A stretch of 64,000 nucleotides of DNA from Scatophagus argus (taxonomy: Eukaryota; Chordata; Actinopteri; Scatophagidae). A model generated the notes under the pieces. That model saw nothing but the letters and a program-made list of their open reading frames with translations. It made no database searches and was not told the DNA's origin. This document shows, in pieces, positions 2,522 through 63,460 of this stretch; position 1 is the stretch's first letter; every line of letters starts with the position of its first letter. The DNA lies in NCBI RefSeq assembly GCF_020382885.2, contig NC_058496.1:724001-788000 (forward strand), written 5' to 3'. Made by a program: the position numbers and the translations under genes.

Positions 2522-2554
<33 letters not shown>

Positions 2555-11535: not shown

Positions 11536-11764
11536 GGATCTGGGACTTCATAGGGATTTTCTGTTATTATTATTGCCTGCTCAATGGGAAGGCAAACAGA
11601 ACAGCACATTTCCACATCCATGTGGCTAAAACATTAGCCGTTTCTCATTTTTCAAAGTAAAAGCCTTCCTGTTGAACTTGGTTGCGTCATCTGACTCAGG
11701 AAACATCAGCAGCCTCCAGCAGCCATCATGTCTGAGACTCTGCTGCATGTAGCTCACAGGATTC

Positions 11765-14900: not shown

Positions 14901-15118
14901 ATCATTAAATATCACAGACAAAAAATGTCATTTATATAACAGTGAGTTTCACAGCTCAGAGGTGACAGCATAGCAGCCAAAGCCTGCTTCCAGTCTGTAT
15001 GCTAAGCTAGGCTAACCCATCAGACAGTAAAAGAATAATTACTTTAGGCACTCTCGTCTCACCGTTATTTATGCTTCAGTTGTACATAACTAACCGTGTG
15101 TGCATAAATATAATACAC

Positions 15119-15154
<36 letters not shown>

Positions 15155-19871: not shown

Positions 19872-20433
19872 TCACATGCTGCTGTCCTGTAGGAGCGGCT
19901 CAATGTCCTCTGTGTCACTGGTGGGCGTGGCCAGAGGGCTGGCGTTCTGAGAGTTTGCGGTGGAGGTGCTGCTGGACTTGCGGGCCGAGCAGGTCTTGAT
20001 GTCGGCCAACTGGCGGTGCTCAGGGATGAAGATGGCGACGAGGAGAGCGAACAAGACGGCACACGCTCCGAACAGGAAGGGAGGACCCGGGATGACGGAC
20101 TTCTGAAGACATGTGGAGAAGAACGTCACACATGAGGCAAAAAACAAACACATCATCTGGAAAAAAGGAATCAGTGTGAATCAGTTTCAAACGTTCATGT
20201 TACGAATCCTCATGAGGAACCTGCACAGAACGTCTACTTGGTTTACTTCCTGGGTGTGTTGCTCACTGAGCATGTGCAGTAACGACTTCCTGCTCAATTT
20301 TCTGACCTTGTGGAGACAAAAACCCGTTTACACTCTCACCCACCTTATGGGGACAAAATGCAAGTCCTCGTGAAGAAATGATTTAATATCAGGACGAAGA
20401 CTAAAGGCTCAGGTAAAGGTTAGTGTATTAAGT

Positions 20434-20494
<61 letters not shown>

Positions 20495-22883
20495 ACCTCT
20501 GTGCTCTGTGAGCTTCTTCCTGTTGCTGGCTCCATGTCGTTCAGCTCCACGTTGAAAAGGAAGAAGATGAAGCCGTAGAGAGCAGGACCCAAACCGTTAC
20601 ACAGACCTCTGATACCTGTGATCATCCCCTGGGCCACACCTGAGCACGCACACACAAGTGCACACACACACACAGAACGAAGTAAGCTTCAAAGAAGCAT
20701 CAAAAAAGAAACTCACAAAAATAATCGAAGAGGACACAAGATAAAACGCCTCCCATCATTCCTGTGGTCCTTCACACAAACAGTGGGGCAGTTGTGGATC
20801 AGCGGTTAGGGAGTCGGACCCGTAACCGGTGGATCGCTGGTTCGATTCCCTGTGGCTGAGGTACCCTTGAGCAAGGTACCTAACCCCCACTGCTCCCCGG
20901 GCGCTGCACGCGGTCGCCCACTGCCCCGGGTTTGCTGTGTGTGTGTGCACGTCACTTGGGTGGGTTAAATGCAGAGCACGAATTTCGTTGGAGTGAGTTC
21001 CCTCCAATGACAAAATATGTCACTTTCTTTCAATTCAGACAGGCCAACAGGCAGACAAACAGGCAGACAGACAGGCGTACTGACCTTGCTGATCAGGTGA
21101 TGCACTGTGTGACACCAGAGCTGAGACTGCTGGGAAGGTGATGGAGGACATGGCTGCTACTGTTCCTGCTGCCCACATCATCCTGAGAATGAGATGAACA
21201 AAGAGGACGTCAGCGTTTCGACCCGAGCGCCTCAGGGGCGGGCAGGTTTTCGGCGCCACCTAACCAACTCACCATGGCTCCGAGCCGAAGCCGTACCAGG
21301 TCAGCTGGAGCAGCTGGAAGCTCAGACCCAGAAGAACCGTGTTCTTGTTCCCGATGGTCCTCATCAAAACACTGAAGAACAGAGTCTGACGGAGTGTGGA
21401 GGAAACAACAAAACACACGAGTTCAACATGTCAGCGTCCTCTCATCACCTGCTTTACAGCAGCTCAGTGAGAACATCAAACCCTCCAAATCTGCCTGAGC
21501 TGCACGCTCGTGTACCTGAGCGACGATGGAGAGAATTCCCACCATGGCGATGAAGGCGGCGATGGCTGCAGGAGAAAACTCGATCACCTGAAACACACAG
21601 CAGCGGCGCTCAAACAAACGAGCTGAAGCTCAGATGTTTTGGAACAAACAGCAACGTGTTTCCACGCGAGGAGAACGTCGGCCTGAACGCTCGGCTGCGC
21701 CTTCAGGGTGACCAACAGCTGACGAAAACGCCATCGAGGACAGCGAGCGAGCGATGAGTCGACGAGCAGCCACGCACAGGACTTCGTTAACATGTGTCTC
21801 AGTTTGTTTTGTGTCTCAGCGTTTACTTTTTCTACTGAAAAACATCAGAACGTCAGCTGCATCTGATGAGACGGCGAGCAATCAGAAACACTCGTCAGCC
21901 AACAGGAAGTCATCGCTTCACTTTGTCCATGTTATTTCACTTGGGAAACGAAACCCTCGGGCCGCACAGTGACGTGCCGCAGCAGCTCAGAGTGAGTGAG
22001 TGTGTGTGTGTGTGTCACCTGTCTCAGGTAGAGGAAGAAGCTGGAGTACTGTCCCGCCTCGGGCAGGTAGGACAGGAACACGGTGACGCAGATCAGCAGC
22101 ACTGTGGTGTCCTTCCCCACACGCCGCAGAGACTGAACGCACACAACAACATCAGTCAATCAGTCAGCCAATCAACCAACTGTACGCTGACCAATCGCTG
22201 CTCGTCAACACTAAAACATTAAAACAAACTGGGATTTGTTACATTTTATAGATAAATTAATACCTTCACTTACTTTGAATGTTCTTTTTGTTGCATTAAA
22301 CAGCATATTAATAAATGTAGTAAGTTGTGTATTTTTTTGGCCGTGACACAGCACTGTGATGTCACGTTGTGATGTCACACTGTGATGTCACACTGCGGAC
22401 TCACAGCGAAGGGGTCCGCCTGCTCCCACGAGATGGGGAAGCCCCAGGACGTCAGCCGCATCTTGTCCGGCAGCGACTCTGGGACAACGAAGAACACGAA
22501 GGCGATGTCAGCGACGGCAATCACCGTGGCGACCAGGACCACCAGGCTGTCGCCGTACTGCGCGGACAGGTAGGCCCCGATGGCGGGGCTCGTCACCAAG
22601 CTGGCCGCGAAGGTCGCCGAGACCTGAACAGACAGAGAGACGCACAGAACAAAGGAACGTGAGGAACCAGAACCACATCAAAAACTTCAGTGAGGCTTCA
22701 CATCCAGAACGTTTTTACTCGACTTGTCTGTCAGTCGTCAGGATGTCTGGACTGTTGCTATGAGACCGACAGGTTTTAGTTTTCTGGGACAAAAACAAAA
22801 GAAAAGGCAGCGTAACCAGTGATGACGATAACGATTAGTTTCAGTCCTGCTGACGGCTGGATGCATTTTTTACTCTGAAGCAC

Positions 22884-22929
<46 letters not shown>

Positions 22930-23066
22930 ACAAAGTTCCATAAGCAGCAGCCTGAACGCTTCTGCTGGTCTCCACCTCCTCATAAAACACACTGAGCCCA
23001 CTTCCTGTGACCCTGGCTGACTGCACAGCTCCATAATAGCAGGAAACACAGTGAAACGGATCTCCA

Positions 23067-23109
<43 letters not shown>

Positions 23110-26100
23110 CTCCGAGGTGCTGCTTTCACCTGCTGTCTCTGTGTGTGGCTCACTTCCTGTCGTACTGACCGACAGGCTGACTGATTAAAACAGGTGAGTT
23201 ACCAGTCCGTAAGCCGTGCTCCTCTCGTGCTCCTCCGTGATGTCGGCGACGTAGGCGAAGATCACCGAGAAGGTCACGGCGAAAATCCCTGAGACGGAGA
23301 TCAGAGCAAAATACCACCTGGACACACAGAGAGACAGGAAATCAGATCCATGACACATACACACACACACGCGCAGTGTGTCAAATGTGAGAATTTTCTG
23401 TCTAACAAAATATTAACTGAAAACAAGCGACGCCTGCAGACGTCAGCTGGTGCTTGCAGGAAATGTGATGTTTGTTTCCTGATGTTTTCACAGAGCAGAT
23501 AAGATAAATAATCTCACGGCAGAAGAAAATGGCAGAAAATGACTTGCAAACAGTTTTGATAATCAAGTCACAGTTTAATGTGAGGATCTGCTGCTTTTCT
23601 TTGTCGTTACTGACAGTAAATGAAGAGAAGCACCTTGAAGAGGACACTTTGGGAAACTGACGTCCATTTTAATCATGAAAATGATCAGGCTGCACTCCCA
23701 TCCACAACTTTCCTCAGACTCTGGAAACTAAAGTGTGGTTGTGTTGCACTCAAGGTCTGCAAAAAGTCATGCAGAGACCACATGAGCAGCACCATGAAGT
23801 GAGCTGATCAGCTGATCCCGTCCTGCTGCGCTTCAGTCTCACAGCAAAGTGCAGGATTAGAAAGTTTTTACATAAGCCCAACTCTGAAGGAAGCTTTGCT
23901 GCAAGGGACACAGGAGGACCACAGGAGGACCACAGGGACACATGAGGACCACAGGAGGGACACAGGAGGGACACAGGAGGCCCACAGGAGGGACACAAGC
24001 GGACCACTGGAGGGACACAGGAGGCCCACACTGTGCCGTGCTGATCCGCTCACATGAACAGCATGTGACCAAAACGCTCCAGCAACTCGACCAGGAGATC
24101 AGGCTGCGACTGCAACCAACCGCTGCTTTCATCAGCAAATCATCTGCTCGTCTTCCTCCATTGATCAATTCATCTTTTACAGCCAGTTTGGTCCATCCAA
24201 GGAGACCTTATCTCACATTCCTGTGAGTCAAACTCACACGGACAGAAAAACAGAGAGGAAGCAAATCCTCTTCCTTAAAAATGACTTTTTAGGATTCATC
24301 ATCTGTTGTGACTGAAGCGGATTCATTTTCAGTCAATCCACCATACAAATACGATTCAAGAATCACAACGTGGAGCTCATTCACACTCAGTGTCAGAAAA
24401 TATTCTGCTCAAACAAAGCAGGACTTTAGAGGGTTTAATTACAGCCACTCAGTCACATGTAGAGCTGAAACACTCACTGACTCAACACACCAGCTTTCCT
24501 GCTTTCTCTGACCGGATGGTTTACAGGACGGCAACCTGGCTGTCGCTGTGGGTTCTGATCAACAGATCGATCAATACCAAAACTGAAGTCAGCTGCAGCC
24601 CGAGTCACAAACACGACACCCCGCACAGAGACGAGCAGAACTGAAGGGGCTGGAATGTAATGAGCTCACACTGGAACCTGATCTGAGGTCAGCGCGTCAG
24701 AACAACAAGACTTCAGCTGAGAGAAGCCCGACACGACGCTCAGAAAACCTTCTCGGATTGGCTGCGACTCTCCGACGTCACGCGTCCTCCGAGACAAATC
24801 TCTAATGACATCTCAGTCAAAAAGTTTAAAGCTGAAACGCTCAACTGACAGATCGATGTCACCACACACGCGCAAACACACACACACACACACACACACA
24901 GTCTGACTCACCATGGGCTGATCCTCATGAAGGGGATGGGGGCGCAGGTGAAGAAAACTGTCATGAGGAGGAAGGACTTCCTGCCCCAGATATCTGACAG
25001 CGCACCAATCAGAGGAGCCGACAGGAACGACAGGAAGCCCTGAACAGAACACACACCCACACACAGAACAATGTTAGCGACCACATCAAAGAAAACAAAA
25101 GTCCACATGTGAAGCAGTGAAAGCAGGATTCTTTCTCTGATCTTTCAGAGATGCAACGACTTATCAGTTAGGTGAAGAACACAACAAATAATCTCTATTT
25201 TGGTAACAGATTAAAGATGGACTCCACAAGTCTATTAATGCTGACATAATAACATAAACAAAAGTGTATCACACATGCTTTATACACAAAAGTGTAATTA
25301 GCACATTAAAATCCTTAAAACACCAACTCAAGTTTACCTATCAGGCCCAAAGACCTTATTCAGCGGACCAGCTGTGAGCCAGCATGTGATCAAACTGCAT
25401 TATGTGGTTCTGTAAGATTCAGCGTTTGCTTTTGTTCCTCACAGAACACCACAGCAGCCTCTGGGGGGCTCACACACCGACAGAAACCATAACGGTTTGT
25501 ATATCCACAGTCTGAGGTCTTCACGTTTCACTTTTTGGGTGACGACCACAGACTACTGCCCCCTGTTGGTGTGGAGCGTTACTGCGTTTCCTCTCACACA
25601 GTCGCACAACGCTTTGCTATGAGCTGCGGACTTCAGTGATGAACCCTGAGGTTTACTTCCTCCCATCATTACTGGTTTGCCTTTTAACAACCACATAGTA
25701 TTTACTCTCATTTGTTATGCTAATTCTATTATTACCATCTGTGCTTAGTATTTACTGCTGAGTCAGTCAAATATCTCAACAGGACTGAGTTTAGTGTGTG
25801 CGTGCGTGTGCGTGCTGGCCTCACCTTCACCCCCTGAACCAGGCCGTTCATCAGGAAGGTGTGCTGAGGAAACGTCTCATGGAGGACCTGAAACAACAAC
25901 AGGAGGTCAGATCTCCTGAAGAACAATGAACATGAACACACACACACACACAGGTTATGTGCCTGCCACACGCTTGGTAACACATGCTGCACCTCTTTGT
26001 TTTTTCTTGAATTGGATTGGATTAATATACACTTGAAAATACAGGAACGTCAGTAAAGGAGCACTGAGAGAAGAGTCCTGAACAGACGTGTAAACCAGGT

Positions 26101-27499
26101 GATCGACCAACAAACATCCAGCTGACTGATGAACTTTCTGAAGCACTGCGTGTTTGATGTTGCGGTTCGCTGTGTTCACTCACGGTCAGCATGGGTGTGG
26201 TCAGCAGCCCCCAGGCGAAGAACTCCAGGAAGATCACCACCACCGCGTGAGTCACTTTCGCTCGGCCTCGGCCGTGCTGCAGAGAGGAAAGAGACACGAA
26301 CATTAGCTGTGGGAAAAACCACACTTCCTGTACAATCTGATCAAATGCACGTCTTCTAGCGCTTTCCTCGTGCATCTGCTACCAGCACTTAAAAGCTAAA
26401 GGAAACCACATCCACTGTCATCTTTTATATGCAGACATATTCAGAATGAACTGTACAATCTACACACAGAAAAGATCTCATGTCACTGTTTAAAGTTTAT
26501 TCTGGTGTTTCTGATCAAAGTCCAGATAAGGGGTTGTAGAGCTGTTTTTCTGTCTCCTTTATCTGCAAAGGAAGTGATCAGAGCCACACCACAGGACACA
26601 ACACATCAATAAAAACAGCGCTGTGACACTGCCTGCTTACTACACTGTGAGTTACACTCCCAACTACAGCTGTGTCTGACATGAGGAGCCCCGAGCAGAT
26701 CAAGCACACAGCATGACACAACATGATGCCACATGTGAACCTGTGAATACACCGTGACTTAACGACACTCATAATGGATAATTCAGCATGCAGCTGAACG
26801 CCACGAGCGAAACGGAAGAGACAAACTGAAGACAAACTCAAGCCAAGTCAAAATGAAACCAAACCAATTCTGGGACTAAACACATCACATTCAGTCCACT
26901 CCTCAGTGTATGACACTCGTGAGCAGCTGTAAAACACACTAATTAACTAATATGATAAGCCCACGGAGAGAATCGATCAAATACAAATTCATCACGTCTA
27001 TATACCACGGACACATTGGACACAGGTGTTGAGCTTATCAGACGTGTTCAGGTGTGAACAAACTGTACTCAGGTGACATCTGAGTACTCAACTTCTATTG
27101 AAAAACTTAAACTGTGAAAAACGAGAAACTGTGAAATGGCGCTGTGTTAGCTATAGAGAGTTAACTTACTTTGAGTAAACGCAAGCTAACGTTAGCTGAC
27201 CAAAGCAGTGGTTAGCTAGCTGAAGTTAACGGCAGAACTGCCGGTTAGCGTTAACTCACATTCTAGCTAGCTAACCCACCGATTAGCTTCAGGCGTTTAC
27301 GTTACAGCTAGCAACACCGAACAAATGACAGCAACATCCGTATTGTTTAGAACTGTCTATCCATCACAGTCTGCCTGGCTTTATTTTAAACTGACCAACA
27401 TTAGCCGACAGAGCTAAGCGACCAAGCTAGCGCACTACTTACCGAGCTCCGGACCAACATGATGTCGTTGGCCTCGGTCGCTGTTTTCTCCAGGATCAT
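19872..27499 (-). CDS. mfsd14b: MFSD14B (HIATL1), major facilitator superfamily transporter, twelve exons
   Basis: Exons in transcript order are 27499-27443, 26276-26184, 25887-25825, 25039-24912, 23317-23203, 22623-22405, 22132-22019, 21587-21516, 21385-21273, 21182-21085, 20639-20497 and 20102-19872. All junctions keep phase and yield 481 residues. The sequence follows the MFSD14 family throughout: VVVIFLEFFAWGLLTTPMLT, the MFS loop motif GALSDIWGRKS, FAYVADITEEHERSTAYGL, the VPESLP(E/D)KMR block and SYLPEAGQYSSFFLYLRQ. The C-terminus DTEDIEPLLQDSSM matches MFSD14B (DEDIEPLLQDSS...) rather than MFSD14A, and stops where human B continues. It is a predicted 12-helix orphan transporter, probably on internal membranes; the substrate is unknown. 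The start ATG at 27499 lies at the head of a short unique exon (MILEKTATEANDIMLVRSS). Intron 10-11 DNA contains a SINE in antisense. Confidence 0.95.
20436..20492. repeat. (GT)n microsatellite beside an mfsd14b donor
   Basis: About 28 GT units. On the mfsd14b sense strand this is a CA run starting within six bases of the donor of the 20639-20497 exon. Confidence 0.9.
20785..21030 (+). mobile_element. tRNA-derived SINE, near-complete copy in mfsd14b intron 10
   Basis: The head begins GGGGCAGTTGTGGATCAGCG. It has an A-box-like TGGATCAGCGG near 20795 and a B-box GGTTCGATTCC at 20839-20849. The body carries CTTGAGCAAGGTACCTAACC and TGGGTTAAATGCAGAGCACG, and the tail ends ATGTCACTTTCTTTC. It is almost base-for-base the reverse complement of 57642-57878. 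Family name not assigned. Orientation is opposite to mfsd14b. Confidence 0.85.
22886..22922. repeat. (TG)n microsatellite
   Basis: A pure TG run in mfsd14b intron 5. A (CA)n run at 23067-23107 follows about 145 bases later, so the two could fold on each other in the transcript. Confidence 0.85.
23905..24035. repeat. Short minisatellite of GGACCACAGGA / GGACACAGGA units
   Basis: About 11-12-bp units repeated roughly eleven times in mfsd14b intron 4. It gives false ORFs rich in Pro/Val/Cys on the minus strand. Confidence 0.75.
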
Positions 27500-32148: not shown

Positions 32149-34635
32149 ATGAAGACCCCATTCAAGAGCCCCGCGGCCCCGCGGCCCCGAGCAGACGGAG
32201 GTGAGTTCACTGACATCCACTTTGAATGGAAAATCATCATATTGATGAGCTTTAATAATCACATGAACTTGGTTGTTTTTCACCTTTAAAAAGCTTCCTG
32301 TTCTTGAGGTGCCCATGGGTCCTTGAAGTCCTTTAAACGTTTGTGAATTTGAGGGAAGAATCAAGGCCTTGAAGGTTTTTGAAAGTATCCATAGCTGGGT
32401 CATTGAAAGTGTATGACTTTATATATTTCGTGTGGTGTGTGAAGCTCTGTCGATATTCTTCACCTCACATTAGTAAACACTGTTGGCAGGTGTGTGAGTG
32501 CTTGGCCTGGAAAGTCATTGATAAGTCCTTGAGGAGACGTGGGAGCCGAGTGTTCTGCTGCAGGCTCGCTGACCTCACGTGTCAGTGAACGCACCACCCA
32601 TCAGTTTGACAGATGCTGGTTGTTTATATTTGTATTTCAGGACATTCAGGCGTGTCTGCAAACATGATGAAGAAAAAGAACTCGCACAAGTAAGTGACGA
32701 ACGCACCCGCTGTTTGACTCGTGCGAGTTTCTGTCTGCTTCATCTCGTCGTGCTTTTCTCCCGGCAGGAAACAGAGGACCAGCGTTGGTCCCAGTAAGAC
32801 TCTGGCTCAGCCCAGAAGGAACATAGTGGGCTGCAGGATCCAGCACATCTGGAAGGAAGGCAGTAAGTTTAAAGACGTGGTTTTGGCAGGTGATGTTACC
32901 TGCTGGAGGCCGGCGTGTCGGCCTTCTCATCTGCTGTTTTCCACACTTCAGCCTTTTTGCTAACAACATCACGAGGGCTCAAACACACTTTGCTCCAAAG
33001 CCTGAAAGGACTCGATGAGGGCTGCGTCAAACCTCCTTTTTTCAGCTAATAAATTTGTGTGTGTGTGTGTGTGTGTGTGCGCCAGGTAAGTCATCGCAGT
33101 GGAAGGGGACGGTTCTGGACCAGGTCCCCGTGAACCCGTCCCTCTACCTGATCAAATACGATGGCTTCGACTGCATCTACGGCCTGGAGCTGTACAGCGA
33201 CGAGCGGGTGGTGGGACTGGAGGTCCTCCCAGACCGAGTGGGTGAGGAAGAGAGCGCAGCTGCAACCGCCGGATCGATTAGTTAGCCTGCAGTTTGCACG
33301 ATCAGTTTGGACTGCTTTTGTTAACTGAATATGGTCAACAGTCCCTGATTCCACCTGCTCAGATGTGAATATTTTCTGGTTTCTGTACTCCTCTGTGTCA
33401 GAGTTGAGGATTTCAGCTCAACATTTCTCACCATTTTCTGACATTTTAGCCCAGACAACTAATCCGTCAGTCAAGAAAATAATCAAAGGATTCGTCAACA
33501 GTGAAGATAAATGTCTCGTTAGTCTGGGCTTTTCCCATTCACTTCAGGACAGTCAGTTTGATCACAGCAGCACCTAGTGGACATTAGAGGAACTGCAGCT
33601 CAGAAAACTTTGAGTTTCACAGTGAACATATTCACAGTAGGTTTACAGAAACTGAAAAGGTTCTGCTGAAGCACGACTCAGTCCAGTCACTTACTGTAGT
33701 GTAAACTCACCCTCTGCCTCTCTGTGATTGGCCCAGCTCCGGCCCGTGTAAGCGACTCGCTGCTGGCGGAGACGATGATCGGGAAGGCGGTGGAGCACAT
33801 GTTTGAAACGGAGGACGGACCGAAGGAGGAGTGGAGGGGGATGGTGCTGGCCCGAGCTCCCATCATGACCTCCTGGTTCTACATCACGTACGAGAAGGAC
33901 CCGGTGCTCTACATGTACCAGCTGCTGGACGACTACAAGGAGGGAGACCTGCGCATCATGCCCGACTCCAGTGAGTGGACACGCACTGGGACCAGCGTCA
34001 CCAGTCACCTCTTTAGCCCCTGGTTCAGGTCCACGTTCGTCTTTAGTTTCAGCCAGCAGAAACGTTTTTACTTCAGTTTATTGCACTGATGTTTTCATTT
34101 CATTTTCACTTTTCACCTTTGACTAGTTTTTGTCAGTAAATACAGTTTGTGAACACTTTGTTTCATCAGTGAGATGCTGCGTTTTGCATTCAGCAGCACA
34201 AAGTGCTGGACAACATACCGACAACCAATCAGATCACAGAAGAGAAGCTGCCGCTAACCAATCAAATGACACAACAGGGATGTTTAATTTGGCTAAAAAT
34301 AAGATCCCGTGTCGCGCTCTTAATCACGTCCAGATCTTTTGGTCGTGTTTATCCTGAAGCAAATTTCTGATGCGAGACTCTGAAAGGAAGTTTTTAAAAC
34401 TGTCTGTCTGTCTGTCTGTCCCTCTGTCCCTGCAGACGACAGCGTGACGGCGGAGCGCGAGCCCGGCGAGGTGGTCGACAGTCTGGTGGGCAAACAGGTG
34501 GAGTACGCCAAAGAGGATGGCGGGAAGCGGTCGGGTATGGTCATCCACCAGGTGGAGGCCAAGCCCTCCGTCTACTTCATCAAGTTTGACGACGACTTCC
34601 ACATCTACGTCTACGACCTGGTCAAGACCTCCTAA
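32149..34635 (+). CDS. spin1: Spindlin 1, histone methyl-lysine reader, six coding exons
   Basis: Coding exons are 32149-32200, 32641-32689, 32768-32862, 33086-33241, 33737-33970 and 34436-34635, giving 261 residues against 262 in human SPIN1. The phase is kept at all junctions. The N-terminal tail reads [18 protein letters not shown] and [14 protein letters not shown], followed by three Spin/Ssty Tudor-like repeats. These start near [27 protein letters not shown] and [15 protein letters not shown]. The second repeat keeps the aromatic-cage region ([12 protein letters not shown], then [20 protein letters not shown]). The end [16 protein letters not shown] is identical to the family. Spindlin 1 binds H3K4me3, with H3R8me2a, in the nucleus and promotes transcription, including of rDNA. 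The start is fixed by the conserved MKTPF; an overlapping ATG lies four bases upstream. Paralogues such as spin2/spin4 are less likely because of the N-terminus. Confidence 0.96.
33056..33079. repeat. (TG)n tract before a spin1 acceptor
   Basis: A pure GT run six bases upstream of the exon beginning at 33086 (GCGCCAG acceptor). It stands in place of a polypyrimidine tract. Confidence 0.9.
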
Positions 34636-39678: not shown

Positions 39679-42181
<2,503 letters not shown>

Positions 42182-42446
42182 TGATGTCACAATGGACCTG
42201 TGAGGTCAGCGGGGCGTCTGCTGAGGACACGCCCTCCACAGTGTGACTCTGAAAGTTTTCTGACCTCTGCTGGTGTGAGGGCGGCAGCCGGGCCACAGAA
42301 CAGACAGAGAAACCAGAACCAGAACCAGCCCGCCTCCCACTGGACCTCAGCCCCTACAAGCTACCTGCTAACAGTGGAACCAGTTTATTAGCCGGACCAA
42401 ACTGGGACCAGAACCAGTGTTGTTCTGTCCAACCCGCTTCTACCTG

Positions 42447-47156: not shown

Positions 47157-50940
<3,784 letters not shown>

Positions 50941-51429
50941 CTTGATGCTGTTAGGGGAGAACATGAACAGAGGCCTGATTTAAACAAGGCTTTAACAGCG
51001 CTTCAGTTCTAGCAGAGAGTCCACACCTTGTCCGAAATGAGTCTGTGTATGTTTACTCCGTCTGTGGTGAAACAACCACAACCGAAACCGTTTAGCTGAC
51101 CAACAAACAAAAGGAAGCAGCCGGCTAAGCTAACCTGCAGCTAAGCTAAATGCAGAGCTCAGCTTTAGTGTGAGGCGTTAAGCACCGTGACAGTCATGCC
51201 GGGTGAAAGCAGCCATACCTAAGAGAATTAAACACAAGCAAGTGACTTCCTTCTCCAAGAAAACCTCTCAATTCCGTGTGTTAGCTTAGCTCTGAAGCTA
51301 ACCGGCTAATAGCTGCACTTCTGCCTACGCCTTGCTAACAGCAGGAGGCCACTTTCGCCAGGATTCACAACGGAAACCATAAATTATGTAACAGACAGAC
51401 AGAGTGCGCTAGAAATCCTGCTGTCTTAC

Positions 51430-51560
51430 CTTCGGTCCGGGCGTCTATCTAACCTGTAAACCCGACTCAACTGTTGATTACACTGGCAGTAATCTTTGTT
51501 AGCTGGTTAGCCCGGTGATCCGTCAGGGAACCTTCCTCCTCTTCCGCGATTCTTCTTCTC
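51430..51560 (-). promoter_or_regulatory. Putative rab14 non-coding first exon and promoter
   Basis: On the minus strand the block ends CCGGACCGAAG|GTAAGACA, a strong donor at 51429, about 480 bases before the acceptor of the ATG exon. The upstream limit is not visible. The region to 51660 is the likely promoter between rab14 and the afap-like gene's 3' end. Confidence 0.5.
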
Positions 51561-52564
51561 CAACGAGAACAGGGAAAACACCGCGAGACTTACGGGTGTC
51601 TACTGGCAGCTAGTGGACGAGAGGAGGGTGGGGGATTCATAAACTTCCCAGTGGCGTATGAAATCATTATCATCCAACAATATTTCCTCCGCCCTGCTTG
51701 TATCTCTGCTGCAGTTTCAAACTTCACGAGGAAAAACAGAAACAAGATGTATGTATGAATGTTTTTAATATTACAGTATCATTTGACAGATCAGTGTTTA
51801 GTCAAACAAATGAATCTCATACAAAAAGAAATCATATAAACGAGTGAATGTCATGGTAATAAGATAAGTCACTTCAGCCGTACAGTAACATAGTGAGAAC
51901 AGGTAGTCATTCAGTTATTACACAGAGCACGTGGGCTTAAACAGGCTAAGAATAACCAACTGCATGAAATTCACAGCAACAACAACAAGAAGTCATCACT
52001 GTGAACACAGCGACGAGTTTAACACAAACCGAGCTCATCGCACAGCATCCAACCGTCCACCAGCAACAGGAAGTACAGTGGATTCACAGGACAGACAGGA
52101 AGGGGACGGACTCTCTGCATCACTGTGACGGACAAAATATTGTTTACTGACATATAAAAGCCTTTAACTGGGTGTTAAGAAAGAGTGTGAGAGTGCTTCT
52201 GTGTGTGTGTGTGTGTTCAGTCTGTAGAAACAGTTGTGTTCACACGGACTCAGGCGTGTTCACGTGACAGACTTTGGGCCACAGGCCGTCCAGCGCCAGG
52301 TGTGAACGCAGTGTCTGATATGGGCTGCGGTGCTTGGGACAGCCAATCAAAAGCTTCGTGCAGTGAACAAAGGCGGGTTCTGTGCTACGTCAGAGCCGTG
52401 AACTGAATATGCTGAGCAGCCACGGAGGCGACGCAGACTCTTTCAGTTGGAAACAACCGGTCAGGGTTTGTCACGTTAGGTTAAATCCACAGCGGACCTC
52501 GGGAGAGTCGGCAGCTGAGAGGACTGGAGTTTGTCGACGGGATGTGACGATTGGACGGCTGGTG

Positions 52565-55500
52565 TCAAGCTGCAGCTTTGGTCTCCCACTCCTGAGTGAA
52601 CACACACACAGCAGTCAGTAACTCCTACAGAAAAGACCTCAGCTGGTTGAAGAACCACTTAGCACCTCCTGAAGGTCTGGGCTTTGCTGACCTCCAGAGG
52701 TTTACCTTCTCACGGGGTCAAAGGGCAAAGTTCTCCTGTCAGTGATGCTGACTGTGTGCAAAGTTGAAGCTGACTGCAAAGTTTCAACTTACTCTGTTGA
52801 CATGTTAGCAAGCTAACCAAAATTCTAAACAAGCTAACCTGTGTTAACTTTAGTATTTTAATGCTAAAAGGCTAAATGTACCACATGTGAAGCAGCGTAT
52901 GACAGTCTTTGGACTGAATGTTGACGTGATGGACGTGTGCTGGTTGATTTTCCTACAAATGATGTGAAATCAGTAAATCACATGTGAACTGTATTTAATA
53001 GTCTGTAAGCTAAAGGAACAGTTCACCCAAAAGTCACTCAAAAAGCCCCCAGATTCTTCAGCTGTTTGAGTGTGAGGCTTCAGAGATGTTTTGAGGACTG
53101 AGAAACTCGACCCGACTCTCGGCCAGCGCAGGGCTGAGGACACGAGGGCCGAGTCTAACATCGGTGCTTGTGTGTGACTCTGACCTTCCTCCTCTGGAAA
53201 ACCTTTCCATGTTCGATGAACAGCGCTGATGGAGCTCGTCTTAGAGAGTTTTTAGCTGAGGCCGTCCGTCGCAGCAGAGGGTTCAGGAAGCCCGCCTGGA
53301 CCAGCAGAGACCAGCAGAGACCAGCAGAGACCAGCAGAGACCGGACAGCAGTCAGACAGTCAGCGTGGCTCAGTAATAATGCGGTGCACTCACACAGAAC
53401 TGCCTGTTGTTCTCACCTGAGCGCGCTCAGTGCAGACGGCCAGCGACTGCCTGAAAGAGGTGCGTTTGTTTTGCTTCCCAGCAGACGCCAGGTTGATCTC
53501 TGACCCCGCCCTCAGCTGCACCATCCTCTTCCCGGTCAGCTCCAGCTTCTGAACGCCTCGCTCCACATCCACCGACTTCCTGTCTGAAACGCACAAAATG
53601 TCTTCTGTCAGGGTTGTTTTTGGCTTTTGAAAAGAAATAATTCAACATATCAGAGCAGAGTTTATTTCTGAGATGAGGCTCACTGTGTTTGGTGAAGATG
53701 GTGTTGCTGTAGGTCACCGAGTCTTTGGACGACACCGAGCTGCAGCGAACTGAATCCTGAGAGTCATGAAGCTGAAATAATCACATACAGAAAAGACAAA
53801 CACAAACTTAGTTATGACTGATAGTGAAATTACACCTGAATTAACTGCATGGAGTTTACATTCTACAGTTTTAATTCAGTAAACGATCTAAAGTGAAAGA
53901 GTTCTTCCTCCATCACCACCTTGTGCTCCAGTGTGGAGGTGTTGGAGTAGATGGGCTGCTCTCGGCCTGCTAAACTCAGATGGAAAGGGTCATCCATGTA
54001 GGTGTTGGAGGTGGGAAACTTCCGAATCTGCAGCCCACTGAGACGGGACAACAACAGAACAAAATCACCACAGAAGAAGAAGGAAAAACAAGAACTGGCC
54101 TGAACTGGTTCCATGTTTGGACCTTCTAATGCGATCGGTTGATGATAATTCATGAACTTTTAATATTTTTTGCAAGAGATATAAATCTCATAATCTCAGA
54201 AGCATTCAGATCATTTCAATAAAAGTATTAATACTGCACTGTGGACAAGTATTAAGGTGAAATGTTACGTAGGTAACAATGGGTTAAGTATAACCAGGAA
54301 AATGTACTCCCAGTCCTGTGCGGGACTTGGTGGCCTCACTGGACCTTTAAAGTATTCACAGTGAAGGTGAAGCAGATACAACACACTTTCTCACCTGAGA
54401 GCTCCACCTGTGTGCTCATGAGTGCTGTTGTCATGGTGACTGTGACTGGCAGCTGCGTCCTGCAGCAGCTTTAGCCATCTGTCCTTTTCATCCGGACTGC
54501 TGACCTGAGGGACGGACGGACACGTGAAAACAGACCGAACCCCAAGTGAATTCAATGATTTGCGTCTGCTGACACGTGAGCTCACCTCCAGCACAGCCAC
54601 CTGGTCACCGAGCATGCTCAGTGTGATCCTGTAGGAGTGGTCGGTGTCGGGTCCGGCTCTGACCTCACACCCTCGGAGCTGGACGGTGTACTGAGGCGAC
54701 CGCTGCTCCTTCACCCGCCCTGCCTCCTCCTCCTCCTCCTCCTCCTCCTCCTGTCCGAACATGTTGAGCAAACCGGCCTCCACCTGACACAGTAAACTCT
54801 GCCACTGACAGTTCATCAGCACACTCAGGAAACCTGTCAGCAAAGCACACCTGAGGTCAGAGGTCACATGACTAACATGACATCAGACTGAACTGTCCCT
54901 GACATCAGTACCTTTGTGTCTGTGGAGGCTGCACCGAGCTGAAGGAGTCTCCTCCTCAGAGTCAGTCTGGACCGTACTGGACTACAGAAACATCACATGT
55001 GACCTCAGTCCAACCTCATGTTGTTCATACATTCACTTTTTATCACCTGTTCTGCGTTGTTACAGATCAGGACACACATTATATCTACACACGCATGTGT
55101 GTGTGTGTTAGAGAGAGTGTGTGTGTGTCTCACCCTGCAGGACGACGGCTGATCTGATCTGATGAGAGACAACGAGCTCTGAGTCTCCACCTCACCTCCA
55201 ACGCTCACCTCCTGTATCACCTGCACACACAGACATGTACAGTACACCTGGCTTACGCCCGGCTGACACCCAGTTCACACCCTGTTTACAACTGGTTTAC
55301 ATCTGGTTCACACCTGGTTTGATTTCAGTTTACACCTGGTTCACATCTGAAGTACTCACACTGTGTAAAGGTAGTTAGCACACAAAACAATCAAAACAAA
55401 TAAATGATGATATAAAATTATTGATTATAGATTATTAATTGATGTAAATTCAGCCATTTCCCAGACAGATGAGCCCCACGTTTACCAGATGCAACATTAA

Positions 55501-57156
55501 AGTGATGAATACAGTAATCATCTCTTCCTGTCAGCTGGTCTCTTCAGGCGTCCCCTCAGCAAATCATCTGCCTCCACCTCGTCCTGTCCTCTGTGTCCTC
55601 CTCCCTCACACCAGTGACCTTCATGTCCTCCTTCACTACATCCATAAACTTCCTCTTTGGTCTTCCTTTGACCAACACTGTCCCTCCTCTGAACATGTCC
55701 AGACCACCTCAGCCTGGCCTCTCTAACTTCTAAGTTAACAGATGTGAGCACTTATTCCACCACTAAATGTTGCTGTTCACTGATGTCCCAATGTGCATGC
55801 ATGGGTCTGCTGGTTGAGTTTAACTTTACTGTAAACTTCATAAACTGATCACTTGTTTTCAGTAAAATCTGATGTAAATAAAGCTGTCATGTAGTGAAGT
55901 GAGAAGTACAACATTTCTCTCTGAGGTGCAGTAGAAATACTTGAATTGAGTATGAGTGGGTAAAGTTTGTACTTAAAAAACAGCATGTTGAGGTGCTGCT
56001 GACCTTCTTCCATTCGTCGGCCTGCTGGAAGGTGCTGTATCCCAGGACCAGAGTCTCGGAGCCCAGTGGAACCAGTTTGAGTTGGTGCTGGATCTTCCTG
56101 TTGCACTTTGACTTGTAGACCAGCTGACAGCCGCGGAGGCTCAGCTCCAGCTGAGGCAGGAGGTCCTGAGCACACTTATAACACTGTGTGAGAGCAGAGA
56201 GGAGGTCAGGAAGACCACCGAGCAGAGCAGCATATTATCATCAGCTGTGATGGTGGCAGGTGGTGGTGCAGCCTCCACCTGTTAACTTCTCCACTAGAAT
56301 CAGACTTTCCACCTTGACTGTTTTACAGAACCTTTTTGTTTTTTATTGAACCATTACTTTGGCTGAGCAGTGATCCATTCTGCAATTAAGTTGTTAAAGA
56401 TATATCAGCTCATCAATCATTATTATTATTATTTCGATTATTATTGTAATTCTTATTCCACTGTTGACTGGCTCCTGCTGTGGATCTTCACGGTCTCTTG
56501 ATGACAGATCTGCCCTCTGGACCAGATTTACACAATCAACATGTACTCTGCAGTAACTGGTCCACCTCTTTGGTCAGAGTTATCACATCTGTTGTACTAT
56601 AAAAACTCTAAAAACACTGCAATACTGCAGTTTGGCATTGCTGTGCTTTCTGCCACAGAAACACGGTGAACTATGAGGCGACGGCTGGCTTACAAAAACT
56701 GCATTTTGTTATGGATTCTCCCCAGTTCATTTGAATGAACTGACATTTTGGTGATTCGGTTTGTTTTATGATAAAAACAGCTAAACTATCTTAGCAACAG
56801 ACGAGTCAGACCACCCACAGGAGACCCAGGAGACCCAGCAGAACCTTCACCCCCTTCAGTTAGCACTCAGTTTGTCTCCCCTCACCAGCAGCACGTCGTT
56901 CCTGATGATGAACAGCTGTTTGGTCCACTGTCCGAGCCACTTCCTCCTCCACAGGTACCCGCAGAGGCGGGACTCGGGGGCGGGTCTTAGGCAGGGCTGG
57001 GAGGCGCTCCACTGGATGTAGTGAGCTCTGTCCTTCACAGGTTCCTCCTCATCGTCTTCATCCTCTCCGTACGACTCGTAATGACTGCTGTCTGACTCCA
57101 CCTTCTCTGAGGGGACAACGAAGACATTTATGTTAACAATCAGTTTTTACATCATG

Positions 57157-57192
<36 letters not shown>

Positions 57193-60100
57193 ACCAGCGT
57201 TGGACATGGTTGTGTCAGCCATGTAGGGTTCTGCCTCCTCGTAGGTATCTTCATCATCATCATCACCGCCCAGACCTCCTGGGGGGAGAGGCGGCACTGC
57301 AGGGCCCTGGATATGACATCACAGGAAGAGGGGGAACTCGCTGTATCAGTTCATTAAGTCGGATGCATACACACACACAGAAGTGCTCAGATACAAGTGA
57401 ATCTTCAGGTCTCAAACTGGTGTTTAAATGAAACCGTGTGGGTGGACCTGATTGAGACTGAGACTGAAGAAGCTGGGAACCACTTGGACCAACACAACAC
57501 ACTAGTTTGTTGACCAGAGTCTCAGACTCCATTTAGTTGCATCCGCATCGCGAAAATGATCTCAGTTCTGCTTTGCGCTCCTACCTCAGATGAGGTACAA
57601 GAGCAGCCTCAAGATGATGAAAGAAAGATGAAAGATTAAAGTGACATATCTTGTCATTGGAGGGAACTCACTCCAACGAAATTCGTGCTCTGCATTTAAC
57701 CCACCCAAGTGACGTGCACACACACACAGCAAACCCGGGGCAGTGGGCGACCGCGTGCAGCGCCCGGGGAGCAGTGGGGGTTAGGTACCTTGCTCAAGGG
57801 TACCTCAGCCACGGGGAATCGAACCAGCGATCCACCGGTTACGGGTCCGATACCCTAACCGCTGATCCACGACTGCCCAAGTGATGTAAGCGCCCAGTGA
57901 TTGGTCCAGACGAAAGTGTGTGTGTGTTGAATGGTCAAACATATAAGTCACTGCAGCACCATCAAGCAGCAGAAACTCAGAAACAAAACTCAGATTAATG
58001 TGCTTCAAACTGCTGCATGTCAAATCACCCACCGGCTTTCGCTCCGACTGGCTGTGCGAGTACAAGCAGAATAAAGGACCAGACTTTTGTTTTCTTTTCA
58101 CCATCCACTGACCTAAACAACTTAGTTACTGTTGTAACCATGACGACGAGGGTGGGCTGAACTTAACACATTCGTTCACTCAAGTCGAACCACCACATCA
58201 GTCGAGTTGTTTTTGTGCCTAAACCCAACCAAAGCTTCACCACAGCAATCAGTTTCTGTGTGTCTCTCTGGAGGAAACGGACTGAACCACAGCCTGCCAG
58301 TGAACGCAACATCATGTCTGTAAATGAGCCACACATGAGACGAAATCCCAGGAGATGATTTTAGTGTGTTTGTGTGTGCGTCTGTGTGTTCTGTCGATCC
58401 ATCACGTAGACCAGATGCTAATCGGCCGCCATCAGTGACCACTTCCTCCCTCTGCAGAGCTCTCAGCCAATAGGACGACAGATAGAGGGGAGATGGCCTC
58501 AAATGTAAACACTGAACATCCTGTCACTCCCTCAAACACACACACACACACACACACACAGTCATGTTTCCATCACTTTTGGGGACATTACATAGACTTC
58601 CATTCATTTCCGGTAGGCTTAGCCACCACCTGACCATAACAATAAACATTACTTACCTTAACGTAATCCTAACCTCAGCCTAACCTTAAAGCAACTCTTC
58701 ACCGTAATATTTAACCATTTAAGTAAGGCAGGTCCTCACAATGTGACTGTAAACAGATTTTTGTCCTCACAACTACAGGAATACACACACACACACACAC
58801 ACACAGAAAGCATGCATCTCCTCCCAAACCTCATGAGGACTCGGTCTGTCATTACTGACCCACATCACAAACCTCCGCCTCCTCCGCCTCCTCCGCCTCC
58901 TCCGCCTGTTCCTGTTATCTTAAAAAAGCCTTTTTTTCTTCCTCCACCACTTTTCTTTAACCTCATGAGGAGCCATCATGAGGTCAAGACGTGAAGGAGA
59001 CACCAGAGTGCACAAACAACAGCGTAAAGAGAACGTGAATCAGCTGAAAGGTCACTCGCCAGACGCAGGTATTCACACCCAGTCAAAGTACTAAGGTACT
59101 AATACCACACTGTAAAAATACTCCACTTCAAGCCAAAGTCCTGCAACTAACAACTACAAAGCAACCAATTTAAAGTGCCAGAAGAATGCAGTGAAGTGAA
59201 AAGTACTCTGAGTGGAGTGGAAATACAAAGTGGCATGAAAAGACTCACTGTGTACTTTAGTGTAGTACTTGTAGTACTGTGTTTTTGCTGACAGCTGAAG
59301 GAAGGTCTGCAGCACCTTTCAGTCACTTTTAGAGCAGCAATTTTTATTTTGTTTTCAGCAGTTCTCCAAATCAGACAGAACATAAACACGTTCAAGCTAA
59401 TTAAGCTTTACTTGAGTATTTCTGTTCTTTTGTTACTTTATCTTCCTACTGCATTACATCATCACAGAGTCACAGTTTGCAGTTTTACCACAGAACCCCT
59501 CTGAATACAGGACTTGTGTAGAAGATGTGCGTACTGCACTAATGGAGCCTATCCCAGCATGCACTGGGAGAGAAGTGTTGAATGCCCGTGTTGACTCACC
59601 CCGTTTCTCAGCCGCACAGATGAGTCCTGCTTCGAGACCAGCTCAGAGGACCCGCCAGCTTCTGGACAGACAGAGACGTTAGCTTTCAGTCAGTTCACAC
59701 ACAACACTGGAGACACGATTCAGTTTCTGTCCAAAACACGTCAATGTCGTCTTCGTCAAACCTCCAAAGGACTCGCACTGAGGAGCCACAGTGAAAGCTT
59801 TTACAGCTTGTGTCACAGTTTTCTACCACGTCTTTCTTGGACTCTGCTGGTTAAGTATCTGCCCCATGTCCTGAGGCCGTCCTCAGCAGTGTCTCGCCCT
59901 GATGTGATGCTAAACCCCTTCCCCTCTGTCTCCCATGTGATGACTGTGAATGCAGCTCAGTCTTACCTGTTCCAGGTGTGTCTATCTGCTCGTTGCTAGG
60001 AGACAGAGATGGACAGCTCATGATCATGTACTCAGCATCTTCCACTGGAAACACAACAAAGGCAGAGCTGAGGCTAATCGCTTCACCAGCTGAACTGCTG

Positions 60101-60812
60101 TCAGATCCTACGGCTCAGTGACGTTCGCTCTCTGACTGTCGTGTCGGCTGCTTTCACCTGTCAGCTGTTCCCGAGTCCTCATTCAACCCGAGAGGTTTAC
60201 CTCAACTTCCTTCAGCGCTGACACTTCACCATCACTCAGCGCTTCTTTACTTCAGTGCTAACTTCTCTCAGGAACTGCCTCATAACCACCACTTCAACTT
60301 CTTTCAGGATTTCAACCTTTGCAAGTCTAGTCTAGTCCTAATCCTGGGACCAGTAGTCCCAGTCTAGCCTTAATCCTGAGACCAGTAGTCCTAGTCTAGT
60401 CCTAGTCCTGGGACCAGTAGTCCTAGTCTAGTCCTAATCCTGGGACCAGTAGTCCCAGTCTAGTCTTAATCCTGAGACCAGTAGTCCTAGTCTAGTCCTA
60501 ATCCTGGGACCAGTAGTCCTAGTCTAGTCTTAATCCTGAGACCAGTAGTCCTAGACTAGTCCTAATCCTGGGACCAGTAGTCCCAGTCTAGTCTTAATCC
60601 TGGGACCAGTAGTCCCAGTCTAGTCTTAATCCTGGGACCAGTAGTCCCAGTATCAGTAATAGTACAGGTGATATTACCAGGAGTATCGTTTGTTTGCAGT
60701 TTGGACAGCAGCTCTGAGATGGATTTCTTCTGAGCCTGAGCGATGTAACTCAGGTTCTCTGAGTCCAGGACAGACAGGAAGGACTGCAGGTCCCAGATCA
60801 GCTTGGCCAGCA
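52565..60812 (-). CDS. AFAP1-family actin/Src adaptor, short form; fourteen exons, first coding exon not found
   Basis: Exons in transcript order are 60812-60678, 60044-59967, 59661-59600, 57306-57195, 57106-56886, 56183-56004, 55220-55134, 54981-54912, 54833-54586, 54504-54395, 54037-53920, 53771-53684, 53583-53417 and 52591-52565. All junctions keep phase and give about 567 residues plus a missing short N-terminus. The first segment (LQSFLSVLDSENLS) matches the AFAP start. A proline motif PAVPPLPPGG and TYEEAEPYMADTT, then SSHYESYGEDEDDEEE, are the SH3/SH2-binding region. PH1 is at about 179-269 (GYLWRRKWLGQWTKQLFIIR) and PH2 at about 316-420 (FLSVLMNCQWQSLLC, RGCEVRAGPD). KFPTSNTYMDDP recalls AFAP1L2. 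The last exon EWETKAAA matches the family ending (AKEWE-K). It lacks the long coiled coil before that end and is 160-250 residues shorter than AFAP1, L1 and L2. A run of about nine glutamates sits inside PH2. AFAP1L2 is the closest by eye. Confidence 0.88.
53290..53345. repeat. Short tandem repeat, GACCAGCAGA units
   Basis: Four to five head-to-tail 11-bp copies in the last intron of the afap-like gene. Confidence 0.75.
54724..54757. repeat. (TCC)n triplet run coding poly-Glu in the afap-like PH2 domain
   Basis: On the minus strand this is an in-frame GAG run within the 54833-54586 exon, coding about nine glutamates in a surface loop of the second PH domain. Confidence 0.85.
55505..55740 (-). 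mobile_element. Decayed non-LTR (RTE-like) reverse-transcriptase tail
   Basis: The minus strand reads EARLRWSGHVQRRDS, then after a frameshift GRPKRKFMDVVKEDM and REEDTEDRTRWRQMIC, then a stop. This is the well-known C-terminal tail of many fish LINE copies (RLRWFGHVxRR...GRPKRR). It is a short, frameshifted, 5'-truncated fragment in an afap-like intron. The clade (RTE-like) is from memory. Confidence 0.7.
57157..57188. repeat. (GT)n microsatellite beside an afap-like donor
   Basis: On the sense (minus) strand this is a CA run starting about six bases after the donor of the 57306-57195 exon, in an intron of only 88 bases. Confidence 0.9.
57642..57878 (-). mobile_element. tRNA-derived SINE, near-complete copy in an afap-like intron
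   Basis: Reverse complement of the 20785-21030 element with only a few differences. The B-box appears as GGAATCGAACC at 57815-57825, the body as ACCTTGCTCAAGGGTACCTC, and the tail begins AAAGTGACATATCTTGTCAT. On its own strand it reads head to tail like the first copy. It is in the same transcriptional orientation as the host gene. Confidence 0.85.
58867..58910. repeat. CCTCCGCCT 9-bp/6-bp repeat
   Basis: Four to five units of CCTCCTCCG in an afap-like intron. It codes a false poly-proline ORF. Confidence 0.8.
59080..59290. repeat. AAGTA-rich dispersed repeat copy
   Basis: It shares AAAGTACTAAGGTACTAATA, CCACACTGTAAAAATACTCC and AAGTCCTGCA with 11765-11890. It lies in an afap-like intron. 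Confidence 0.55.
60327..60655. repeat. Minisatellite, unit about 31-32 bp (CTAGTCCTAATCCTGGGACC core)
   Basis: About ten units alternating CTGGGACCAGTAGTCCCAG and CTGAGACCAGTAGTCCTAG. The unit contains the near-palindrome GGGACCAGTAGTCCC. It is in the afap-like intron that ends at the 60044 exon. Confidence 0.9.
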
Positions 60813-62652
60813 CTAAAGACAGACAGACAGGTGATTAGACAGGTGAACAGGCAGGCAGGCAGGTGAACAGTTGGACCCACAGTGTGTTTGTCCTCATTAA
60901 CAGGTTGACAGACTTTATCTCAGTCTGACTGAGTCATCGTTTTGCAGACTGTTGACAGAAGCACTGAGTCATGTCTGATTTCAGTTTCTACCAGAGACTC
61001 TTAGCTTGGCTGATGCGGTCAGGTGTTGTCCACAGGGTTTGACCGAGGAGAGAATTTGCTCCTCCTTCTTTTAAAACCTTCCTAAAATCATGTTGAGGCA
61101 GTAAAACAACACGGGAGATTAATCAAGAAGCAAATCAACGAACAAAATACACCAATAAAGTAAAAAGAATGAAGAACAGTTTCATTTAGAGGAAACGCCC
61201 ACACTGGAACCTGACAGTCTTTATCTTAATGTTGTCTTTGAGTAAATAAATAAAAAGTACAATATAATCTCCTGTTATTTTCAAGGCAGCCTGCTAAATG
61301 TTACACACCAAACGTGCTGTCAACACTATTTTAACATTGTTTTAAAGCTTCACGTGCGGCTCAGCGTTTAGCATGTGGACGTCTACGTGCTGGAAAGCTA
61401 ACATGATTCATATTTGTTGAAAAGCAGCTGATTTTTGGACACGTTATTCACTGCTTTAAAAATGTCTCAGACTGAGACTTTGTCCTCATCCATAGGGGAG
61501 GGACAAGCTGGAGGTCCAGTTTGTGGTCAGCAGGTTGATAAAACGTGAAGTCACACACTTTGAGACGCTTGTCTGTACGTGCAGGACGTCCATCAGGACT
61601 AGTGTCTCCAGATAACTTTAAACTGTCTGTTTGAATCAGAGCTGATCAGGTCATTCGTTCTGTTAATGGGAGACAGAAAAAGTCCCGGACGTTGAAAAGT
61701 TTCCCAGGACGTGTCCTTCACACGTTAACTGATGTGACAGGACACAGCGATAAGCTGCTGGCTGCTGCTAATGATTAACACGCAGTGAAGACTGAGTGTG
61801 TGTCCCTGTTCAAACATTCGTCTGTCCTGGAAAATAACCGGACTGTCTCCTGTCCTCCTGTCCTCCTGTCCTCTGTCTCTGCTCTGCCACAGTTTCACCC
61901 CGATGCCGATGTAGAACTGCAAACCTGGTTCTTCAACCTTCCGTTTAATCTGGGGGGGTTTAATCCACGAGGCTTCTTCAGGTTCTGGTAACCAGGGTCT
62001 AGAAGTCCTTTTGATGGTTGGAACCAGATCAGGTGGTCAGTGATGAGGTTCGGGGAACATGTAGTTGGTTCTTCTGAAGCTGTGAGAAGTTCTGAGGTTC
62101 TAATGGACCTCCAGAGCATCTTCACTGGCTACAACCAACAAAGGGACTTCTAGATCCTGGTTCATGACCACCAGAACCCCTAAGCAAACTTTAGAAGCGC
62201 TTGGCTGTTTTCTGTTTCTGCCGGAGAAGTTTAACTGAACTGATCTCCAAACAGTCTGAGTTATCTTGAGAAGGAGGGGAAAATGTAAGAAATGCAGAGA
62301 AAAGCCCTCGAGACAGACGCCGATTGTCTCTGAGGTCCATTCAGACGGACAGAGTGAGTCCATTCACGCCGCGAGCTGAGTGGGAGACGAAGGTTAAATG
62401 TTTCTGATTAGCTCCTCTCTGCTGACTTTAAGGATCCTACAGCCCTGCTTATCAGCCCGCTGCTGCTTTAAACACGGAGCTGCACATGCCTCACACGCCT
62501 ACAACACGCCAACCACGACACGCCAACCACAGAGCGCGTCTGTCCGCGGAGAAGACACCTCAGAGAAAACACTGCTACGCCACTTTGTGTTGCTGAACGC
62601 TGCTTATCTGACCATCAATGTTACTTCCTGTCTCTGGCTTTGATGCTGCAGA

Positions 62653-62995: not shown

Positions 62996-63041
<46 letters not shown>

Positions 63042-63460
63042 TGCTGGTGTGTGTGCTTGTGTGTGTGTATGTGTGTGTGTGTGTGTGTGTGAGTGCTGGT
63101 GTGTGTGCGTGAGTGCTTGTGCATGTGTGTGTGTATGTGTGTGTGTGAGTGCTTGTGCATGTGTGTGTGTATGTGTGTGTGTGAGTGCTTGTGCATGTGT
63201 GTGTGTATGTGTGTGTGTGAGTGCTGGTGTGTGAGTGTGTGTGTGAGTGCTGGTGTGTGTGCGTGAGTGCTTGTGCATGTGTGTGAGTGCTGGTGTGTGT
63301 GTGTGAGTGCTTGTGCATGTGTGTGTGTATGTGTGTGTGTGAGTGCTTGTGCATGTGTGTGTGTATGTGTGTGTGTGAGTGCTGGTGTGTGAGTGTGTGT
63401 GTGAGTGCTGGTGTGTGTGCGTGAGTGCTTGTGCATGTGTGTGTGTGTGTGTGTGTGCTG
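62996..63460. repeat. Compound TG satellite with GAGTGCTTGTGCATG units
   Basis: About 465 bases of TG runs broken by GAGTGCTTGTGCATG and GAGTGCTGGTGTGTG, giving 50-70-bp higher-order units. It creates His/Thr-rich minus ORFs and Cys/Val-rich plus ORFs that are not genes. Confidence 0.92.

Follow-up and report, generated by a model that had tools for sequence, protein, structure and literature searches.

The AFAP-type gene of the window

We analysed a 64,000-nucleotide stretch of the genome of the fish Scatophagus argus, called here the window, which corresponds to positions 724001-788000 of contig NC_058496.1 (C4 below; the whole genome has 570.7 Mb on 48 contigs). Its minus strand carries, from 60812 to 52565, a gene of the AFAP family that encodes two PH domains (PH1 and PH2), shares many features with AFAP1L2 (also named XB130 or PI3KAP) and is probably a fourth AFAP ohnolog.

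The chain is composed of 15 phase-consistent exons. One frame is open over 603 codons and then reaches a stop, every internal border has AG before and GT after the exon, and the GC content at the third codon position is 0.70 in the exons versus 0.45 in the introns. A previous, sequence-only reading of this DNA had described the chain with its phase consistency and its exact end coordinates; it had counted fourteen exons and considered the chain complete, which has to be corrected on both points, as the exon carrying the ATG is missing. By comparison with the human AFAP starts, this exon must be upstream of the chain, and perhaps just outside the window. A crude scan over positions 60813-69240 gives 25 candidates, among which an ATG for MDKQK (C4:788767-788782, 767-782 bases past the window end) is preferred because it resembles the human AFAP1L1 start; it ranks third of the 25 and has a weak donor site, so that it is only a candidate. 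The exons, all on the minus strand, are the following.

60678..60812, minus: exon 1 of this chain and probably coding exon 2 of the gene, LAKLIWDLQSFLSVLDSENLS..., corresponding to the N-terminal region through which XB130 multimerises
59967..60044, minus: exon 2, YxxM motif (EYMIM), of the type that binds PI3K p85 in XB130 (motif role from PMC4068053)
59600..59661, minus: exon 3, linker, placed by splice sites and phase only
57195..57306, minus: exon 4, proline-rich, SH3-ligand-like stretch (PPLPP) and TYEEAEPY, by sequence motifs
56886..57106, minus: exon 5, acidic motif HYESY and the beginning of PH1 (LWRRKWLGQW, closest to AFAP1L2)
56004..56183, minus: exon 6, remainder of the PH1 core (Pfam PH, alignment)
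55134..55220, minus: exon 7, end of PH1 and linker
54912..54981, minus: exon 8, linker, placed by splice sites and phase only
54586..54833, minus: exon 9, PH2 core, into which a run of glutamates is inserted (2COF match, alignment)
54395..54504, minus: exon 10, last PH2 helix (alignment)
53920..54037, minus: exon 11, RKFPTSNTYMD, counterpart of AFAP1L2 RKFSEPNTYID (alignment)
53684..53771, minus: exon 12, TYSNT motif
53417..53583, minus: exon 13, phases 1-0 as in coil exon 2 of afap1l2, of which it may be a decayed remnant (best match E 0.048)
53185..53295, minus: exon 14, tail exon ending in KVFQRRK, homologous to the AFAP1L2 tail (shuffle test)
52565..52591, minus: exon 15, terminal EWETKAAA and stop; exons 14 and 15 together correspond to the actin-binding 11-mer of XB130

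The intron after exon 1 contains a minisatellite with a 32-base unit (about 10 copies, 92% match, 60329-60651). Another intron holds a stretch that looks by eye like a tRNA-derived short interspersed element (57640-57865); a tRNA scan of the window with ARAGORN finds 0 tRNA genes, that stretch included.

Membership in the AFAP family

Pfam recognises PH in two stretches in the middle of the protein (whole-protein E 7.3e-18). The solved structure 2COF, a PH domain of KIAA1914 (human AFAP1L2), is matched by PH2 at E 5.4e-8, and its residues agree with the PH2 of the human AFAP1L2 sequence used here. The N-terminal SH2/SH3-ligand region is recognised from sequence motifs only: the YEEA, YESY and proline-rich sites have counterparts, while the YDYV site that follows PH2 is missing in the alignment with the AFAP relatives. 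The terminal KEWExK exon is present, with 7 of the 11 residues of the C-terminal motif identical to those of AFAP1L2, and exons 14 and 15 together match the tail of afap1l2 with a score that none of 500 shuffles reaches. The two PH domains, the ligand region and the terminal exon proposed from the letters alone are thus all found again. Inside PH2, a run of glutamate codons (54724-54750) faces a gap in the seven aligned relatives.

Searching the whole genome with the window protein yields 24 matches at E <=1, which correspond to the window gene itself (14) and to four other AFAP genes (10), namely afap1l2 on C21, afap1 on C23 and two copies of afap1l1 on C12 and C14; at this threshold, there is no AFAP match on C10 or C20. 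The names of these paralogs rest on comparison with human sequences. The window gene resembles AFAP1L2 by its PH1, which is the most similar (WRxKWLGQW), by the RKFxxxNTYxD motif, the YxxM motif and the N-terminal helix (16 of 35 residues in exon 1 identical to human AFAP1L2), as well as by a tail exon with VxQxxKEWExK and identical exon phases at the 3' end. It differs from it by the lack of a recognisable coiled coil, the glutamate run in PH2, an identity of only 35-37% over the PH regions and a chromosomal arm where dematin stands in place of ABLIM1. With AFAP1 (AFAP-110) and AFAP1L1, it shares the two PH domains, the terminal EWE-K exon and an ABLIM-type gene upstream on the same strand, but both of these retain the coiled coil and have in addition a separate actin-binding domain (PMC4939424).

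Absence of a recognisable coiled coil

A C-terminal coiled coil or leucine zipper is a feature of the AFAP family. Eight queries, which are coiled-coil exons from the four other AFAP genes, and a ninth, the afap1l2 tail, were searched against positions 50001-62000 of the window, which gives 179 matches up to E 20 for all nine queries together. From 54395 to the stop, the best match on the coding strand has an E of 0.048 and pairs the second coil exon of the C14 gene with exon 13 (28% identity over 47 residues). Two matches elsewhere score better, one at E 0.025 on the opposite strand and one at E 0.002 in the first intron of the chain, where a coil exon would be in the wrong order. As a positive control, each of the eight coil exons finds the other three genes at E <=3e-7. 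In the shuffle test, the same pair scores best (1 of 500 shuffles reached the score) and the remaining seven coil exons are at chance level. Over the 191 residues that run from the last helix of PH2 to the C-terminus, 12% are lysine or glutamate, versus 16-34% in the eight paralog coil exons. This search thus recognises no coiled coil in the window gene, as the sequence-only reading had noticed, and between PH2 and the end there appears to be, at most, a possible decayed remnant in exon 13.

The exon phases suggest how the coil could have been lost. Read by eye, the phases are 1-1 for the first coil exon of afap1l2, 1-0 for the second and 0-0 for the tail exon; exons 13, 14 and 15 of the window gene have phases 1-0, 0-0 and 0. 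The first coil exon would be gone, its loss keeping the frame, and the second would probably have decayed in place.

A coil exon could instead have been missed, or be added by alternative splicing, the protein being then an ordinary AFAP. Weak matches to coil exons do exist, at E 0.048 on exon 13 and at E 0.002 between exons 1 and 2. The match at E 0.002, however, is located ahead of exons 2-15, that is, in the wrong order, the introns 3' of PH2 measure only 100-593 bases, and queries that find each other so readily across paralogs give nothing stronger here. We consider this explanation to be very improbable.

A dematin gene upstream and the ABLIM-AFAP tandems

Segments of a gene for dematin (dmtn), a relative of the ABLIMs, are found at C4:793.2-798.0 kb, on the same strand and upstream of the AFAP gene. 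They start about 5 kb beyond the window, and 8.4 kb separate them from the first AFAP exon placed. When joined, they match the solved dematin chain 8iah at E 8.6e-79, aligned in four stretches of which three are past the cut-off. The anchor segment on C4 is 75% identical to 8iah dematin versus 41-61% to five fish ABLIMs. The possibility that this neighbour is one of ABLIM1-3 was rejected, as the dematin chain aligns in four stretches. In an unrooted tree of 10 anchor segments (about 60 columns, with two human ABLIM rows), the C4, C20 and human dematins stand apart from the ABLIMs at 99.1/99, and C4 and C20 form a pair at 93.6/87. Dematin is a neighbour and not an AFAP homolog, but it is placed towards the window gene as ABLIM genes are placed towards AFAP genes.

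This placement is indeed repeated in the genome. A search with the ABLIM anchor gives 21 matches on seven contigs, and an ABLIM gene is located upstream of an AFAP gene, on the same strand, on C12 and C14 (ABLIM3-AFAP1L1) and on C23 (ABLIM2-AFAP1). The order and orientation of dematin and the AFAP gene on C4 are the same as in these three tandems. The two AFAP1L1 neighbours of C12 and C14 pair at 97.4/98 in the AFAP tree described below. In human, ABLIM1 adjoins AFAP1L2.

When loci are counted, ABLIM1 has two (C21 and C10), ABLIM3 two (C12 and C14), dematin two (C4 and C20) and ABLIM2 one (C23). C4 thus does not appear to be the teleost-duplication (3R) partner of the AFAP1L2 arm, whose ABLIM1 loci are on C21 and C10, a pairing of moderate support, whereas the dematin loci are on C4 and C20. 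A single teleost duplication leaves no more than two copies on each arm, which makes the C4 gene hard to explain as a 3R copy of afap1l2. A search for an afap1l2 copy in the 20 kb that follow ablim1 on C10 found none, and there is no AFAP match in the 20 kb around the C20 dematin (C20:493001-513000). By eye, the C20 dematin and a calcineurin A gene are arranged tail to tail; on C4, the region beyond dematin holds a PP2A catalytic gene. Human 8p carries PPP2CB and PPP3CC, to which the PP2A and the calcineurin A gene, respectively, may correspond.

Position in the AFAP tree

The AFAP tree was built on 269 columns from 8 sequences: the four fish paralogs, three human proteins and the window gene. 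Approximately unbiased (AU) tests were performed under the LG+G4 model with two alignments; topologies 1 and 8 are the same unrooted tree, so that the tests concern unrooted relations. The window gene attaches to the branch that separates the AFAP1L2 pair from the AFAP1/AFAP1L1 group, and the AFAP1L2 pair excludes it at 94.6/94 (269 columns) and 96.8/96 (340 columns). A placement of the gene with AFAP1 or AFAP1L1 fails in all 8 tests (AU p <=0.012; topologies 4-7, two alignments). The shape of the tree agrees with the order ((8,10),(4,5)) that is favoured for the 4/5/8/10 paralogon by PMC2453138, which counts four human ABLIM members without naming the fourth in the passages concerned. Because the branch of the window gene is very long, no date can be taken from the tree by itself.

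Origin of the window gene

Human DMTN is located at 8p21 (PMC6277997), and the dematin neighbour places the window gene in the human-8p arm of the 4/5/8/10 paralogon. Mainly because dematin adjoins it just outside the window, we are confident that the window gene is the fourth AFAP ohnolog produced by the two vertebrate genome duplications (2R), on the arm that the sequence-only reading had proposed. This dating to 2R is what we infer. An ancestral tandem, made of an ABLIM-type gene followed on the same strand by an AFAP-type gene, would have been copied by 2R into ABLIM1-AFAP1L2, ABLIM2-AFAP1, ABLIM3-AFAP1L1 and dematin-AFAP. The teleost duplication would then have copied the dematin-AFAP block, AFAP being retained only in the C4 copy, and the AFAP protein of the window would have evolved fast.

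Several points weigh against this origin. Trees that unite the window gene and fish afap1l2 survive the AU test (p 0.113 and 0.093), the branch of the window gene measures 1.44 versus 0.11-0.38 for the others, and the comparison covers a single fish genome with human sequences. Inner nodes of the anchor-segment tree are weak, C21 and C10 being paired at 86.5/71 and C14 with the ABLIM3 pair at 22.9/55. On C21 the tandem is broken, with 2.35 Mb between ablim1 and afap1l2 and the two genes on different strands. Finally, three genes of the window, encoding a spindlin, an MFSD14-like transporter and a RAB14-like protein, have human counterparts on 9q and not on chromosome 8.

The first of these points would fit with the window gene being afap1l2b, a fast-diverging copy of afap1l2 that arose in the 3R or a later duplication and moved beside dematin. 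Its PH1 and RKFxxxNTYxD motif do resemble AFAP1L2 most, and afap1l2 has visibly been relocated in this genome. However, the best tree leaves the gene outside the AFAP1L2 pair, the ABLIM1 arm already has its two loci, the dematin tandem has the order and orientation of the ABLIM-AFAP tandems at three other loci, and an independent move to exactly the side of dematin would be a coincidence. This origin is thus improbable in our opinion. The sequence-only reading had also argued against a recent afap1l2 duplicate; synteny is in favour of that view, and the sequence tree supports it only mildly (AU p of about 0.1).

The long branch, about 4-13 times longer than those of the paralogs, could also mark a gene in decay, or a pseudogene, with a coding chain that is still unbroken. 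The loss of the coiled coil and of the YDYV site, the glutamate run in PH2 and the absence of any AFAP found near the C20 dematin point in the same direction. Against it stand the 15 exons with intact splice sites, the 603 open codons, the third-position GC content well above that of the introns, and the maintenance of both the terminal motif and the YxxM motif. There is, in our view, very little chance that the gene is such a relic.

Other genes of the window

In addition to the AFAP gene, the window contains the following genes.

13600-15330, plus: leucine-rich-repeat gene, by eye from open frames
19870-26380, minus: MFSD14-like transporter, by eye from open frames
33000-34630, plus: spindlin, by eye, confirmed by Pfam
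40600..42200 (approximate), plus: mak16-like gene, identity by eye
47200..50950 (approximate), minus: rab14-like gene, identity by eye

The sequence-only reading had relied on MAK16 (8p12) to assign the arm. The assignment to a chromosome-8 arm stands, but MAK16 is weak evidence by itself and was rejected as the main synteny argument, as the three genes beside it have their human counterparts on 9q; dematin is stronger. Spindlin is found on C4, C20, C6 and C13. On C20, 17 Mb separate spindlin from dematin, and blocks have therefore been rearranged. Two UNC5-like loci are present on C4 and two on C20, which counts in favour of the fourth-ohnolog origin. Neuregulin loci are found on C12, C14 and C20 and none is near the window, which neither helps nor hurts the fourth-ohnolog origin. 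Many minisatellites and simple repeats are located near both window ends (1626-5999, 11277-11536, 12936-13506 and 62996-63457).

Predicted function

VLQKAKEWEKK, residues 830-840 of XB130 by our count from the C-terminus, is represented by VFQRRKEWETK in the window gene. Actin cross-linking by XB130 depends on two regions, the segment 830-840, which binds F-actin, and the first 40 residues, which multimerisation requires; it is abolished when either is lost (PMC4939424). Counterparts of both cross-linking regions are kept in the window protein, as judged from its sequence. The previous suggestion that the protein, being without coiled coil, would not cross-link actin assumed that the coil makes the cross-link; it is not supported by what XB130 needs, and, judging from sequence, the window protein may have kept this ability. 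AFAP-110 self-associates through PH1 and its C-terminal leucine zipper (PMC4939424), and the coil may therefore matter in that paralog.

The YxxM motif of XB130 binds PI3K p85 (PMC4068053), and its counterpart in the window gene is EYMIM. The window protein is thus expected to be a small adaptor that still clusters and binds actin. It would be phosphorylated on tyrosine, cluster via its N-terminal helix, bind F-actin via its last residues and recruit SH2/SH3 partners such as Src and PI3K. Its expression, actin binding, multimerisation and partner binding are what we infer.

A probable fourth member of the AFAP family

Three named members compose the AFAP family in the passages of PMC4068053, PMC4939424 and PMC9835296 that describe it. 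ABLIM and AFAP were analysed as neighbours of the paralogon in PMC4906994, where their 2R origin is left unsettled for lack of invertebrate members. No fourth AFAP was found in the paper listings searched. A fourth branch may be drawn in the supplementary AFAP tree of PMC4906994, and fish gene-model databases may list the gene under an afap1l2-like name.

It is conceivable, albeit rather unlikely, that on the chromosome-8 arm both partners of the tandem were reduced jointly after the duplications, dematin by the loss of its LIM domains and AFAP by that of its coil. In fishes, the two genes may then have become a co-regulated module in the membrane skeleton of the cell cortex or of red cells, a module that would have been broken in mammals with the loss of the fourth AFAP.

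If the origin proposed here is true, a fourth AFAP in the dematin arm completes the quartet, and the dating of AFAP is tied to that of the ABLIM/dematin quartet. The window gene would moreover be a natural deletion of the coil, on which one could see if AFAP function requires the coiled coil or can do with just the N-terminal helix and the terminal 11-mer.

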